Shown in pieces: positions 5,724 to 17,945 of a stretch of DNA of 27,370 nt (the first letter of the stretch is position 1; every line of letters starts with the position of its first letter). The stretch comes from a virus. The stretch is taken from positions 1-27,370 of the IMG/VR virus record IMGVR_UViG_3300034190_001100. One strand, given 5' to 3'. Under the pieces are notes generated by a model. That model did no database searches and had not been told where the DNA came from. It worked only from the letters and a program-made list of their open reading frames with translations. Both the position numbers and the translations under genes were made by a program.

Positions 5724-6155
5724 TTACTCCTTTATTAACTTAACGCCAACAAGCATAGGACTGGTGCTTGTTCTTCCTTCTGGAAAGTATGGGTAATAAT
5801 CATAGGCATCTCTATCTTCTTCATAAGAACCTGAGTCCGTCCAAATGCCGTCCTGTGCGCTATATGTCCATTTAGGATACACATATTTATATCCTTCAAC
5901 ATCTGGCATAGGAAGTCCTGCTCCTATAGTTTCTGGGCCACCGGGTTCTTTAGTAGAAATAAAATCAGTTGAAAAATTAGGGAATTTATCTGGAGATGAG
6001 CCAACTAACCCAACTAATTTATTGTAGTTTAAAAAGCCGGGAAGGTGTGTCATTCCGGTTCTTGCTCCAGCCTCGGTACTCCACGGACTATAATCAGCCG
6101 ATAGTAAACCCGGAGCCAAAGGCTGTGATACTGGTATAGGTGTTCTTACTGCCAT
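5724..6155 (-). CDS. Hypothetical protein, 143 aa
   Basis: The ATG at 6155 overlaps the end of the preceding gene by 10 bases; the upstream AAGGATAT is a weak and rather distant ribosome site. The protein is proline-, glycine- and tyrosine-rich (PVSQPLAPGLLSADYSPW near the start; DRDAYDYYPYFPEGR near the end). It has no obvious domain, membrane span or coiled coil. It is encoded between a GNAT-like gene and the glycine-zipper internal protein gene, so a minor structural role is likely. I do not recognise a family. Confidence 0.65.
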   Translation of the reverse strand: MAVRTPIPVSQPLAPGLLSADYSPWSTEAGARTGMTHLPGFLNYNKLVGLVGSSPDKFPNFSTDFISTKEPGGPETIGAGLPMPDVEGYKYVYPKWTYSAQDGIWTDSGSYEEDRDAYDYYPYFPEGRTSTSPMLVGVKLIKE

Positions 6156-6616
6156 TTGCTTTTTATATCCTTTGTTATTACTGAGTATTCATTATCCCAT
6201 TTTAATTTTTTTGCAAGACCTTTTCTTGTCCAAGCCTCTATAGCAGAGCATCCGTGTCTTACACCAAATCCTTCAATTACTTCTACAAAATCTTTCCAAT
6301 GCTCGTAGTCGTGACCGCTTTTAGTAGCAAAGGTAATTATTCTTAAGACTCGTTTCCTTGGGTATGTAATAATTTCTGTAACGCCAGCGCAAAATATCTC
6401 TCCGTCTTTCATTCCTACCCATAAAGTTTGAGTTTCTTCAAAGATTCTTTGCAATACATCTTCTGAATATAGTTCTCCTTCAGCGTAAGCCAATGCTTTT
6501 TCTATCAAAGGCTTTACTTCATGCCAAACATATTCAACGTCATCAGAATTTACTATAAGCAATGTTGGTTTATTAGCATCTTTTAACATACTAACAGTGT
6601 TTAAATGGTTTTCCAT
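6146..6616 (-). CDS. GNAT-fold-like protein, 156 aa, in the T7 gp13 position
   Basis: The protein has the alternating helix/strand layout of a small N-acetyltransferase. There is an N-terminal helix around VWHEVKPLIEKALAYAEG, a strand pair TLWVGMKDGEIFCAGVTEI, a further strand KRVLRIITFATKSG, and a C-terminal VIEGFGVRHGCSAIEAWTR segment before a lysine-rich end. The classical acetyl-CoA loop (Q/R-x-x-G-x-G/A) is not clear, so catalytic activity is doubtful. Related proteins occur widely between the tail nozzle gene and the internal protein genes of podoviruses. T7 gp13, which has a degenerate GNAT-like fold and is needed for virion assembly, is in the same place. Its start overlaps the previous stop as TAATG with no Shine-Dalgarno site, so translation is probably coupled. 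Confidence 0.7.
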   Translation of the reverse strand: MENHLNTVSMLKDANKPTLLIVNSDDVEYVWHEVKPLIEKALAYAEGELYSEDVLQRIFEETQTLWVGMKDGEIFCAGVTEIITYPRKRVLRIITFATKSGHDYEHWKDFVEVIEGFGVRHGCSAIEAWTRKGLAKKLKWDNEYSVITKDIKSKWQ

Positions 6617-14049: not shown

Positions 14050-14676
14050 CTAATAATATCCAGAGGTGTTCATCACCCTTAATTCAGAGCCAGAATGTCT
14101 ATCTTTATCATCCTGCTCCTGTAAATCAGCAATAGCCTGTCTCAACCCTCGCTCCCACACCGGGATACGTTGGTCGTTCATAAGGAATGGTTCGGCTTGT
14201 AATAGAGTTCCGTACAAATAAACGTCAGGAGCGTTAAGTATAACCCAATTAGTTGTAGTTGCGTCACTAAGACCATCAAACTTTTTATAGTAGGTCATTA
14301 CATAATTGTACGCGCTGTCTGGTGTAGGACCAAAATATATTTTATCACCAATAATACTGTATGCGCTAGGTTTGCCAGAGGAACTACCCGCCCAAATTCT
14401 ATACAGCATTTCTGGAGTCATATATTGAATAGATGTAATCGGGCTTGTATCTAAATGTATTTCACGCATCTGGACATATCCAGTAGGCAAGTCATACGCT
14501 TTTGTGCCGGACACCGTAGCATCAGTCACAATAGTTTCCATTGCTCTAAGACGCAATACTCTGTTAAATACAGCCTCATTCAGAGCAATAAACTCTGGTA
14601 TCCGGTCAGACAGATCATCTCTGTCCAACCAGTTAGCCACAGCGGTCTGAAGAGTTGAGTACGAATTAATAGCCAT
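14050..14676 (-). CDS. Head-to-tail adaptor protein (phiSU10/T7 gp11-like), 208 aa
   Basis: The sequence starts MAINSYSTLQTAVANWLDRD, then FIALNEAVFNRVLRLRAME and DLPTGYVQMREIHLD, with YKKFDGLSD in the second half. It ends in a helical part (VWERGLRQAIADLQEQDDKD). This order of helices around a beta core is that of podovirus adaptor proteins, which sit under the portal and connect it with the tail nozzle. Length of about 200 residues is normal for that family. The start overlaps the stop of a 28-aa microgene as TAATG, with no convincing Shine-Dalgarno site of its own, so coupling is likely. The identification is good; exact family naming would need a profile search. Confidence 0.82.
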   Translation of the reverse strand: MAINSYSTLQTAVANWLDRDDLSDRIPEFIALNEAVFNRVLRLRAMETIVTDATVSGTKAYDLPTGYVQMREIHLDTSPITSIQYMTPEMLYRIWAGSSSGKPSAYSIIGDKIYFGPTPDSAYNYVMTYYKKFDGLSDATTTNWVILNAPDVYLYGTLLQAEPFLMNDQRIPVWERGLRQAIADLQEQDDKDRHSGSELRVMNTSGYY

Positions 14677-14762
14677 TAACTATTCTTGCTCTTGAACCAG
14701 ACAGAGTTGTTAATAATAGGCTTCTGATCGTTGCCTGAAAATGTAGGTTGATATAACCACAT
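14676..14762 (-). CDS. Microgene, 28 aa, between a conserved head gene and the adaptor gene
   Basis: An ATG at 14762 follows the stop of the 113-aa gene by two bases and reads 28 codons (MWLYQPTFSGNDQKPIINNS, then eight more including VWFK). Its TAA overlaps the adaptor start as TAATG. GAGG lies about nine bases upstream. It fills an 88-base space that would otherwise be the only larger gap in this part of the operon. The peptide has three tryptophan/tyrosine residues and no signal or membrane segment. Tight fit on both sides argues for a real gene; no function can be read. Confidence 0.6.
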   Translation of the reverse strand: MWLYQPTFSGNDQKPIINNSVWFKSKNS

Positions 14763-14764
14763 AA

Positions 14765-15106
14765 TTAAACCCTCGTAGGTGTAGTCCTGAAGTATTTGTT
14801 ATCAGGATCATTCAAATATTTTGCTAGTAGTTTGTTATCTTTCTTGATTGCGTCATTTGTCTCTTTGCACCACTGCTCCCAGACATTTATTGGGATTGAT
14901 GCTACAGTAACTCCGTTATCAGTTCCCATTGCAGACGCTTTACCAAATGTAAGTTTGTCGCCATAATTATTTAAGTTAAGTTTATTTCTTTCGATAATAG
15001 GCTGTACATCTTGGTAAGTATTAATAGTTGCAGTGCCGTCAAGATTAATATCCAGTTTCCAAGGACGAGAATCTGGAGAGTCAAAATTCCATCCTGATGA
15101 ACTCAT
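14765..15106 (-). CDS. Conserved phage head-region protein, 113 aa
   Basis: The C-terminus contains IPINVWEQWCKETNDAI and LAKYLNDPDNKYFRT.PTRV. The pattern of a tryptophan helix followed by LNDPDN.(K/R).FRT...RV is one I recognise in small proteins encoded close to the capsid gene of many podoviruses, often of unknown function. The N-terminal half is short strands and turns (DINLDGTATINTYQDVQP). The ATG overlaps the oxygenase stop as ATGA, so the two are probably translated together. Possible roles are a head or neck component; no catalytic motif is seen. Confidence 0.72.
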   Translation of the reverse strand: MSSSGWNFDSPDSRPWKLDINLDGTATINTYQDVQPIIERNKLNLNNYGDKLTFGKASAMGTDNGVTVASIPINVWEQWCKETNDAIKKDNKLLAKYLNDPDNKYFRTTPTRV

Positions 15107-15846
15107 ATCGGCATTGAACCTCTATCTTCTGTAATTTTTTTAAATTTATTATGCACATTCTTTGCATGAAGTTTAGCATCTACAGGTTTTTTGTCAGTTT
15201 TAACAGACTGTTTAGCCTTCAACGCTTTTTTAAGTTCTTTCTTAGTTACCATTACATCTTTCTCCCGAAACCAAAATGTTATAATCCACTTGTCTCCGTT
15301 TTCTGGAGGTAGTCCCATATGCAATGATGCAGGATGCGGAACCTTGTTTTCATCAAGGTTGCCAAACATAAGAACCCTGCCTTGTACGGCTTGTATTGCA
15401 AGTCCTAAAACAGGAAAAACTGTGCCACCACCATCACGCACATCATTTAAGTACGCAATCATAGTGACACAGCGATTCCCACCTTCTTTTATCTTTGAAG
15501 ATTCTGGCATCTCTCCCATCTCATTAGGGAGAAACGCATCGTAGTGAGGTTTATACTCCTGACCCGGCTGATACCTTTGAATAGTCACAGGTTCCAACCG
15601 GGTAGGAGGTAGACCACACATACCGGACAACGCTTCAATAACACCATCTAACACATTATTGTCACCGTAATCAAAGAAAGCACCTTTGCTGGTCCTTACT
15701 TTATCTTGGATATACTTACCATCACGGTTTATTAGATTATCACCAAGCCCTTTATTTTTAGCAAGGTTAATTATGTGTTCACATAAATCAGGTGAAAGCA
15801 CATTATCTTCAACAACAATCGTAGGAGTGTTATTGTATTTTATCAT
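15103..15846 (-). CDS. 2-oxoglutarate/Fe(II)-dependent oxygenase, prolyl 4-hydroxylase-like, 247 aa
   Basis: The full metal and cosubstrate set is visible: H101 and D103 in YKPHYDAF, the distal H176 in SLHMGLP, and K186 in NGDKWIITFWF, the expected 2-oxoglutarate-binding lysine. GGGTVFP (139-145) and RTSKGAFF (51-58) match the prolyl 4-hydroxylase substrate-loop and core motifs. The enzyme should be active. Such enzymes hydroxylate proline or other residues using 2-oxoglutarate, oxygen and Fe(II). A lysine-rich tail (200-240) extends beyond the catalytic core. The ATG overlaps the major capsid stop as TAATG and its stop overlaps the next start as ATGA. It therefore sits inside the virion gene block, which suggests a structural protein as substrate. 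The substrate itself is inference. Confidence 0.9.
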   Translation of the reverse strand: MIKYNNTPTIVVEDNVLSPDLCEHIINLAKNKGLGDNLINRDGKYIQDKVRTSKGAFFDYGDNNVLDGVIEALSGMCGLPPTRLEPVTIQRYQPGQEYKPHYDAFLPNEMGEMPESSKIKEGGNRCVTMIAYLNDVRDGGGTVFPVLGLAIQAVQGRVLMFGNLDENKVPHPASLHMGLPPENGDKWIITFWFREKDVMVTKKELKKALKAKQSVKTDKKPVDAKLHAKNVHNKFKKITEDRGSMPI

Positions 15847-16859
15847 TAAGCGTCTTTTACTCCGATAACAGCCGCGTTAGCCAAACCATTCTTCGCACGA
15901 AGACCGTATTCAGCGATCATCAACTGCTTCACGCTGTCGCCAGTCTTGGCAAGGGTTTCGGTCTGGAAAGGCCGCAGATAGTCGATTGACCAGAAATCAT
16001 AGTCAAAGAAGTACAACTGGTTAGGCAGACAAAAACGGCTAGGCACAATCTTCAGCGTACCGAAATCAGTCACCAGAACATCAATGGCGTTGATAGCGGT
16101 AGCAGGAGCCGCACCCGGCGCTTCTTTCTGAAGGTCAGCAATAACCGAGCCACCAAGCGAACTAATTTTCTGCTTGAGGGAAGCATCGCACATAAGATCG
16201 GTAGGTTCACCACCGTTTTCAAAGCAACGCTCCATAGCGAGGTTAATCATCGCCATCGTCAGAACTGCGTCAACACCCGAAGGGCTTGCAACAGACGTAC
16301 CATCAGGATAGCCAGCCGCAGGAGAGCCTTGGTTGACGATACCAACAACAGGAGAAGCCGAACCATCAATGATGTTAGACGTTCCTGCCGAGGCGGTACC
16401 AAGCCAAGACATCACAGCCGCAGATTTACGAACCGTACTCGCGCCACCAGCAACTTTTAGATCTTCAGACAGAAGCATCTTTTCCATATCGCGCTTAATT
16501 TCTTTTGCGCGTTTGGCCAACTGATAAGCCTGAGATGAACGGCGACCAGCAAAATCTACTGCTTCAGCCGTGCCACTCGTCTGCACTGCTTTGTACGAAA
16601 TCTGAGCATAGTTCTGCAAACGACGAGGCTCTGCAACAGCGAGAGCGTCCATGTTATTGTCACCTTCTAACTGCTGGTTAGCGGCGGCGGCGGCAAGTTC
16701 ATCAGTCTGCCACTCAAACAACGTGTTGTCACACGACCCTTTGCCCACGCTCGACATAAACGGCGTGTCCATCGGGCTAATATTGTAAATAATATCACTT
16801 AGGTCTTCCCTAATGCCAACGGCACTGTAGGTAGTCCTAGTATTGGTTGCGATTGTCAT
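15846..16859 (-). CDS. Major capsid protein, phiSU10-like HK97 fold, 337 aa
   Basis: Motifs typical of the phiSU10-type major capsid family are present: GIREDLSDIIYNISPMDTPF at about 15-34, LFEWQTDEL and LEGDNN. Next come QISYKAVQTSGTAEAV, the long spine-helix region AYQLAKRAKEIKRDMEKMLL, and a C-terminal TLAKTGDSVKQLMIAEYGLR. These correspond to the N-arm, E-loop and spine helix of the HK97 fold. The gene follows the scaffold gene, as usual, with a strong GGAG site upstream of the ATG. A hand-counted 60-base line is 50 percent G+C, higher than most neighbours, which fits a highly expressed gene. No separate decoration protein is obvious nearby. Confidence 0.92.
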   Translation of the reverse strand: MTIATNTRTTYSAVGIREDLSDIIYNISPMDTPFMSSVGKGSCDNTLFEWQTDELAAAAANQQLEGDNNMDALAVAEPRRLQNYAQISYKAVQTSGTAEAVDFAGRRSSQAYQLAKRAKEIKRDMEKMLLSEDLKVAGGASTVRKSAAVMSWLGTASAGTSNIIDGSASPVVGIVNQGSPAAGYPDGTSVASPSGVDAVLTMAMINLAMERCFENGGEPTDLMCDASLKQKISSLGGSVIADLQKEAPGAAPATAINAIDVLVTDFGTLKIVPSRFCLPNQLYFFDYDFWSIDYLRPFQTETLAKTGDSVKQLMIAEYGLRAKNGLANAAVIGVKDA

Positions 16860-16877: not shown

Positions 16878-17945
16878 TTATAGTTCTACATAATCTTCAA
16901 ACAGACCTGCGGCGTCTTCTGCTCTTCCTGTCTGCTGTAGACGTTTCATTTGTTTGGCACGTTTTGCTTTATCAGTGTCAGCCTTGTTTACTTTAGCCTT
17001 GCTCCGCACTACTTTAGGTTTGTTTTTAACTTTCTTAGACCTAACCGTGTTTTGCTTTTTCTGCATATCTTCATATGCTTTGGCTTGCATAAGTACAATG
17101 ATTGACCTGTGATCGACAAGTTGACTTAACTCTTCTTGTGTATATCCTTTGCCTAAAGCAAATTCTGATACGGCTTTAGCCATTGCTTGCCGTTTATCGT
17201 CTTCTGCCCACTGCGGGATAAGTTTCACCATTTTCTGATGCTCTTCTTGAACAATACGCTGATGTTCTCTGCGAGCCTCTGCTTGCGCTTCTTCTTGTGC
17301 TTTTGTTTGGGCTTGCTGTAGAGACTGAATCTGGTCTTGAGCCTGACGATATTCATCACGCTTGGTCAGATATTCTTCTCTATCTTCCATTTTAAGCCTT
17401 TCCCAATCAACATTTTGGAATTGCGCTAAATGTGAATAGTTAGTTTCAATTGCTTGTGCGACAGCACTAACGTACTGGTCTCTGGCTTGCTGAGTCTGAG
17501 CAATTTCGTTCTGATAGTTTTCTACTACCTGATCTATCTGCTTTCGATATTCTGCAAGTTGTTGAGTTTTCCTTGTATAATCCGCTTGTCGGGAGTAGCC
17601 TTTAACGAGTTCTTCTTCCGTGACTTCATGTTCCTCTCCGTCTACTGTTACAGTATAGAGAGTTGTCTCTTCCGAGTCGTCTTCAACTTCTTCTTCATCG
17701 GATTCTTCAGATTCATCATCTTCAGAAATTTCTTCTTCGGTTTCTTCAACCTCTTCTTCAATTTCATCAGTTGTTTCCTCTAAAGCGTCTTCAGTTACTT
17801 CTTCAGACGGCGATGCTTCCTCTTGCTCTTCCGGTTCCTCTAGCGAGTCCATGAGTCCGAGTATTGCATCTTGGGCTTCAGATATACTACCCGGTGCTTT
17901 GGGTAATCCACCTGTGGGTTGTGGGGCTGTTTGCGTATCCACCAT
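16878..17945 (-). CDS. Scaffolding protein, 355 aa
   Basis: Residues 35-94 are extremely acidic, with glutamate and aspartate making up most positions. They are followed by a short conserved module, VDGEEHEVTEEELVKGYSRQ (101-120), then ADYTRKTQQL, that I know from many phage scaffolds. Residues 128-240 are glutamine-rich coiled coil. The C-terminus (about 300-335) is strongly basic (KKVKNKPKVVRSKAKVNK). An acidic, helical protein with a basic C-terminal end that can dock on the capsid protein, encoded directly before it, is the standard scaffold arrangement. GGAG precedes the ATG at 17945. The scaffold would leave or be cut out of the procapsid during maturation. Confidence 0.88.
   Translation of the reverse strand: MVDTQTAPQPTGGLPKAPGSISEAQDAILGLMDSLEEPEEQEEASPSEEVTEDALEETTDEIEEEVEETEEEISEDDESEESDEEEVEDDSEETTLYTVTVDGEEHEVTEEELVKGYSRQADYTRKTQQLAEYRKQIDQVVENYQNEIAQTQQARDQYVSAVAQAIETNYSHLAQFQNVDWERLKMEDREEYLTKRDEYRQAQDQIQSLQQAQTKAQEEAQAEARREHQRIVQEEHQKMVKLIPQWAEDDKRQAMAKAVSEFALGKGYTQEELSQLVDHRSIIVLMQAKAYEDMQKKQNTVRSKKVKNKPKVVRSKAKVNKADTDKAKRAKQMKRLQQTGRAEDAAGLFEDYVEL

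Follow-up and report, generated by a model that had tools for sequence, protein, structure and literature searches.

A prolyl 4-hydroxylase-type gene of marine LUZ24/SU10-capsid podoviruses is linked to the major capsid gene and carries a tail suggestive of recruitment to the virion head

Introduction

Marine phages have often been reported to carry oxygenases dependent on 2-oxoglutarate (2OG) and Fe(II), which most accounts class as auxiliary genes directed at the host and of unknown target. In the literature they figure as auxiliary metabolic genes (PMC10580990, PMC9599517, PMC11561400, PMC3037559), and one survey places P4HA among the most abundant viral genes in Baltic water, its use there being called cryptic (PMC9301287). 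Among the open-access published papers searched, none was found to describe a tailed-phage capsid with hydroxylated prolines. Here we describe a prolyl 4-hydroxylase-type (P4H) gene in a stretch of 27,370 nucleotides (the whole of which is hereafter called the window), comprising positions 1 to 27,370 of virus record IMGVR_UViG_3300034190_001100.

Among solved enzymes, CrP4H-1 of Chlamydomonas (PDB 2jig, 3gze) and bacterial P4H (3itq, 5hv0) resemble the window protein in fold family by sequence, in their Fe and 2OG ligands and in their substrate-site residues; they are, however, cellular proteins without linkage to a capsid gene, and matches to them stop at about residue 195, before a basic tail. 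PDB entry 5c5t, which we take to be the prolyl 4-hydroxylase of chlorovirus PBCV-1, is likewise viral, but belongs to a giant algal virus, gives a weaker match (E = 5.5e-11) and is not associated with a capsid cassette of the tailed-phage kind. The phage 2OG-Fe(II) oxygenases of phrog_61, from cyanophages and pelagiphages, fall in the same PHROG family as the window protein (E = 8.4e-29), but they share only 25–37% identity with it and their matches end before the tail; the five that were checked are located apart from any annotated capsid gene.

The LUZ24-like and SU10-like podoviruses (phiM5, HTVC106P, Venkman and others) share with this locus the order of major capsid protein (MCP), portal, scaffold and adaptor genes, and in most of them a homologue of the small head gene g113 is present. 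Five that were checked differ in having no P4H between MCP and g113; where the slot is not empty, it is taken up by an SGNH hydrolase, a tRNA or small genes of other kinds. LUZ24-like clades from metagenomes have been attributed to Pelagibacterales (SAR11) and SAR116 hosts (PMC10386132).

Results

Organisation of the locus

The minus strand of the window carries a podovirus head module of the LUZ24/SU10 type, in which the genes are ordered TerL, portal, scaffold, MCP, P4H, g113, a 28-residue open reading frame and adaptor, followed by tail and fibre genes. The features discussed below are as follows.

16878..17945, minus strand: scaffolding protein (phrog_3927); left-hand boundary of the exchangeable cassette
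15846..16859, minus strand: MCP (SU10_MCP, LUZ24-like; Pfam SU10_MCP E = 7.9e-83, with matches to PDB 9ny2 and 7z45)
15103-15846, minus strand: P4H open reading frame, 247 residues, ATG start
15253..15846, minus strand: predicted P4H-type 2OG/Fe(II) oxygenase domain, residues 1–198, delimited by Pfam 2OG-FeII_Oxy_3, solved-P4H matches, invariant residues and the ends of bacterial relatives
15106..15252, minus strand: lysine-rich C-terminal tail of P4H, residues 199–247, beginning at Met199 and identified by the match of a tail profile to the stand-alone reading frame of locus L120
14765..15106, minus strand: g113, small conserved head-module protein (phrog_3982, by PHROG match), directly downstream of P4H
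14676..14762, minus strand: 28-residue open reading frame MWLYQPTFSGNDQKPIINNSVWFKSKNS between g113 and adaptor, conserved in position and TAATG-coupled to the adaptor gene
14050..14676, minus strand: head-tail adaptor protein (Pfam SU10_adaptor); right-hand boundary of the exchangeable cassette

The MCP stop codon TAA (15848-15846) and the P4H start codon ATG (15846-15844) overlap as TAATG, and the P4H stop overlaps the g113 start as ATGA. An earlier note, written from the letters of this stretch, had described the reading frame at 15103-15846 with both overlaps, and its coordinates and junctions match ours exactly. In many relatives the 28-residue frame starts MWLY. Among the tail genes, a 156-residue open reading frame (6146-6616, minus strand), conserved in some relatives, resembles an acetyltransferase (GNAT-like by eye) and had no PHROG match.

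Enzyme family and active site

The window P4H matched Pfam 2OG-FeII_Oxy_3 (PF13640) with E = 7.5e-13 and 49.7 bits, against a cut-off of 27; among solved P4Hs, phmmer retrieved CrP4H-1 at E = 5e-26 and a bacterial enzyme at about 1e-25, and a profile match reached E = 1.8e-39. Its cellular relatives are mostly proteobacterial proteins of 26–44% identity. Alignment to the metal and 2OG ligands of CrP4H-1 identifies H101, D103 and H176 as Fe ligands and K186 as the 2OG ligand. All four are invariant in 33 of 33 diverse relatives aligned (44–97% identity), which upholds the view, taken in the earlier note, of a complete ligand set in an active-looking enzyme. Equally invariant (33/33) are E85, Y98 and R125, the equivalents of CrP4H-1 Glu127, Tyr140 and Arg161, which are residues of the peptide-proline site (PMC9676403; PMC5684110). 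The catalytic domain has a median pairwise dN/dS of 0.13, the tail one of 0.19, and MCP and g113 each stand at 0.13; the P4H gene is under purifying selection and is as strictly kept as the capsid gene. Judged by these alignments, the window protein belongs by fold family with the prolyl 4-hydroxylases within the superfamily of 2OG/Fe(II) oxygenases and has an intact active site; we infer that it is catalytically active and that its target residue is proline.

Linkage to capsid genes

Relatives were drawn from three scans of a 2.9-million-contig viral collection, whose use of conserved peptide patterns favoured closer relatives, and from P4H-positive loci of a capsid scan; together they comprise 122 distinct P4H sequences of about 40–99% identity, among which near-identical loci are still present. 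Four metagenome-assembled genomes titled Bordetella parapertussis (L251, L259, L260, L278) look misnamed, having site- and date-coded isolate names and differing P4H genes.

MCP lies upstream of P4H in all 112 relatives with enough upstream sequence, directly adjacent in 74, and g113 is the next gene downstream in all 118 with enough downstream sequence, the exceptions among the 122 being contig ends. The closest non-members are 2OG oxygenases of large phages with 25–37% identity, five of which, when checked, sat among replication or unknown genes. The enzyme belongs to the head block, as had been proposed: above about 40% identity, no relative with sufficient flanking sequence lies outside the capsid cassette, and it is only the more distant oxygenases, rather than the bulk of the relatives, that lie elsewhere. 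The independence of virion genes that would mark an auxiliary gene is not seen within the P4H subfamily, though distant relatives do vary in location; instead the gene has the fixed place between MCP and adaptor, and the conserved neighbours, of a head-module gene. It does not occur throughout the capsid family, being absent from 49 of 106 distinct MCP loci, and its presence or absence has changed at least four times on MCP trees. No P4H was found elsewhere in two P4H-less records of 36–40 kb. We consider a role of P4H in the head module to be well supported. Relatives without it (several among L145–L175) often carry, directly behind MCP, a proline-rich protein of 64–72 residues that starts MA.IGQPP.KG.ATA.GP...PPPY.

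Exchange of the cassette between backbones

In a set of 30 close loci, the distances of scaffold and those of adaptor show a correlation of r = 0.93, though MCP, P4H and g113 lie between them. The distances of these three genes correlate with one another at 0.44–0.67, and more weakly, at 0.18–0.39, with those of scaffold and adaptor. Locus L005 is 93%, 94% and 95% identical to the window in MCP, P4H and g113 respectively, but 50% in scaffold and 68% in adaptor; L017 has the reverse pattern, with 93% identity in scaffold and 95% in adaptor, against 82% in MCP and 80% in g113. These correlations and identities therefore show that MCP, P4H and g113 recombine as a block between phage backbones. 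Since P4H distances track those of g113 (r = 0.67) better than those of MCP, cassette exchange alone does not name the substrate; indeed, once g113 was controlled for, no MCP-specific co-evolution with P4H was found in the 30 close loci (partial r = 0.02), and the linkage may therefore reflect position.

The tail as a gene fusion

The tail, which the earlier note took for an unusual addition of about 45 residues, is real and lysine-rich, with 14 lysines, one arginine and five acidic residues, but is 49 residues long and no stray appendage, being found across the main-clade P4H relatives and homologous to a separate small gene. In P4H-less phages with the same capsid, a stand-alone basic reading frame of about 48 residues lies just before g113. 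A profile of fused tails matched one such frame, that of L120, at E = 3.6e-11, and none of 21,500 composition-matched decoys scored as high; pairwise comparison with it gave z = 14.6 for the tail of L142 and 11.9 for that of the window. On the capsid tree L120 is the sister of the L142 clade. Bacterial P4H matches end at residues 193–198, just before Met199, in 70 of 80 cases, with a median of three more residues to the stop codon. By profile comparison, then, the tail is homologous to a small basic protein of the head module, which P4H-less relatives encode separately and which here is fused to the enzyme. In a deep clade (L104, L105) the P4H has no tail, and a small basic reading frame overlaps its end in another frame; this frame did not match the tail profile, being too diverged. 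Fusion to a head-module protein suggests a recruitment signal, through which the enzyme would be held at the assembling head.

The codon of Met199 is ATG in 63 distinct sequences. An internal start there, which would yield the tail as a separate protein, is not supported: there is no conserved Shine-Dalgarno sequence, and upstream synonymous diversity is unremarkable, ranking 108th among 239 windows.

MCP sequence in P4H-positive and P4H-negative phages

The candidate-substrate region of MCP is a loop rich in glycine, serine, alanine and proline (residues 160–198), which contains S169-P170, P180 and another Ser-Pro near its end. Among all MCP columns, the strongest enrichment in P4H-positive phages falls on S169 and P170, the latter occurring in 93% of these and in 8% of P4H-negative phages. 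A Ser-Pro occurs in the loop in 90% of P4H-positive and 14% of P4H-negative capsids (the tree being built without loop columns), and mean loop proline is 3.25 against 2.10, with equal content elsewhere in MCP (9.4 and 9.6). Deep-clade loops read GAPSPPGLG, GSPSPAAG or GTPAPAAP. The existence of a crystal of CrP4H-1 with a (Ser-Pro)5 substrate makes such loops look plausible as substrates.

Only four independent contrasts are available on the tree, too few pairs for the loop association to reach significance there; for P170 typically three agree, one is level and none opposes, and for the plain Ser-Pro motif there is sometimes one opposed pair among the four. The L142/L143 clade has P4H but carries threonine at the position of Pro170. 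Pro15 of g113 is also enriched in P4H-positive phages (0.81, against 0.15 in P4H-negative ones), and no proline column in MCP, g113, scaffold, adaptor or portal separated the two groups at 95%/10%. A look for proline-rich or collagen-like repeats in the other virion proteins of the window turned up nothing striking. The association of the Ser-Pro loop with P4H is thus a lead, not proof.

Discussion

Gene order, recombination and gene fusion now connect one widespread 2OG oxygenase subfamily with the head of the virion, and candidate residues can be named. The capsid linkage and the fusion suggest that oxygen serves here to modify the viral particle itself and not the metabolism of the host. 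The reading we favour, at about even odds, is that a marine podovirus lineage with a LUZ24/SU10 capsid has in P4H a prolyl hydroxylase dedicated to its head module, acting on a proline of a virion protein, with MCP as the likeliest substrate. The enzyme would be made late and, as the overlapping genes imply, in translational coupling to MCP; its catalytic domain would use Fe(II), O2 and 2OG, and its basic tail would most likely tether it to the capsid or to assembly components. Most probably it would hydroxylate a virion protein at a proline, and would do so while the head matures or earlier; the favoured candidates are Ser169-Pro170 of the MCP loop, and also Pro180 and the Ser-Pro near the loop end, with the adjacent g113 protein as a second candidate substrate. 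The modification might stiffen the loop or stabilise contacts between subunits. Against this reading stands the absence of P4H from many phages with capsids of this family, any modification being dispensable in general.

The enzyme may belong to the head module and yet act on something other than the capsid, be it g113, the scaffold, some other structural protein or a partner of the small fused one. That P4H distances follow those of g113 best and that g113 Pro15 is enriched speak for such a substrate, as does phiM5, where proteins flagged as found in the particle are encoded between the capsid and tube genes; virion-related genes tend to lie in the interval that follows the capsid gene. Yet the residue association is stronger in the MCP loop (Pro170, 0.93 against 0.08), and g113 is the nearest gene to P4H, a position that alone can raise the correlation, and on balance we think a non-capsid substrate unlikely. 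We find it similarly improbable that P4H is a host-directed auxiliary enzyme, acting on a host protein such as EF-Tu or a ribosomal protein or on 2OG levels, and placed in the late operon for timing only. EF-Tu is reportedly hydroxylated by a Pseudomonas prolyl hydroxylase, phage 2OG oxygenases are treated in the literature as auxiliary metabolic genes, and the distant phage relatives do lie among replication or unknown genes; an unbroken capsid linkage, a head-module fusion and exchange in a cassette with MCP would, however, be unexpected of a freely placed gene.

Proteins of the 2OG fold can be repurposed, and the domain might serve the head in a structural or binding capacity, or hydroxylate lysine, asparagine or aspartate, with a tail of 14 lysines in 49 residues that would bind DNA. 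The invariance of all catalytic and substrate-site residues, together with the tighter constraint on the catalytic domain than on the tail, fits catalysis on a prolyl substrate instead, and makes such a use very unlikely in our estimation. The reading as a head-module prolyl hydroxylase has the merit that mass spectrometry of virions can address directly the question of target for phage 2OG oxygenases. Should the capsid prove to be hydroxylated, this would constitute an oxygen-dependent step in phage assembly and a new modification of tailed-phage capsids.

A bolder proposal, which we entertain tentatively and with more doubt than confidence, is that a tailed phage hydroxylates its own MCP with a dedicated, head-tethered P4H, in a maturation step dependent on oxygen and 2OG, and that in deep relatives this has grown into a cassette with as many as three modifying enzymes beside the capsid gene. 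In those relatives a second 2OG-FeII_Oxy_3 protein, PKHD-like and of 207 residues (L104, 4502-5125, and relatives), is encoded between MCP and P4H, directly behind the capsid gene, together with a protein of 180 residues labelled ferrochelatase by PHROGs (phrog_2954; L104, 5106-5648, and relatives among L176–L221). The latter had no profile match to 2OG oxygenases, the likeness lying only in its HxD...H pattern, that is, an invariant H-x-D followed by a later H-W-R-D. These motifs look more like those of a 2OG oxygenase, and the ferrochelatase label of phrog_2954, widely used for pelagiphages, may be wrong.
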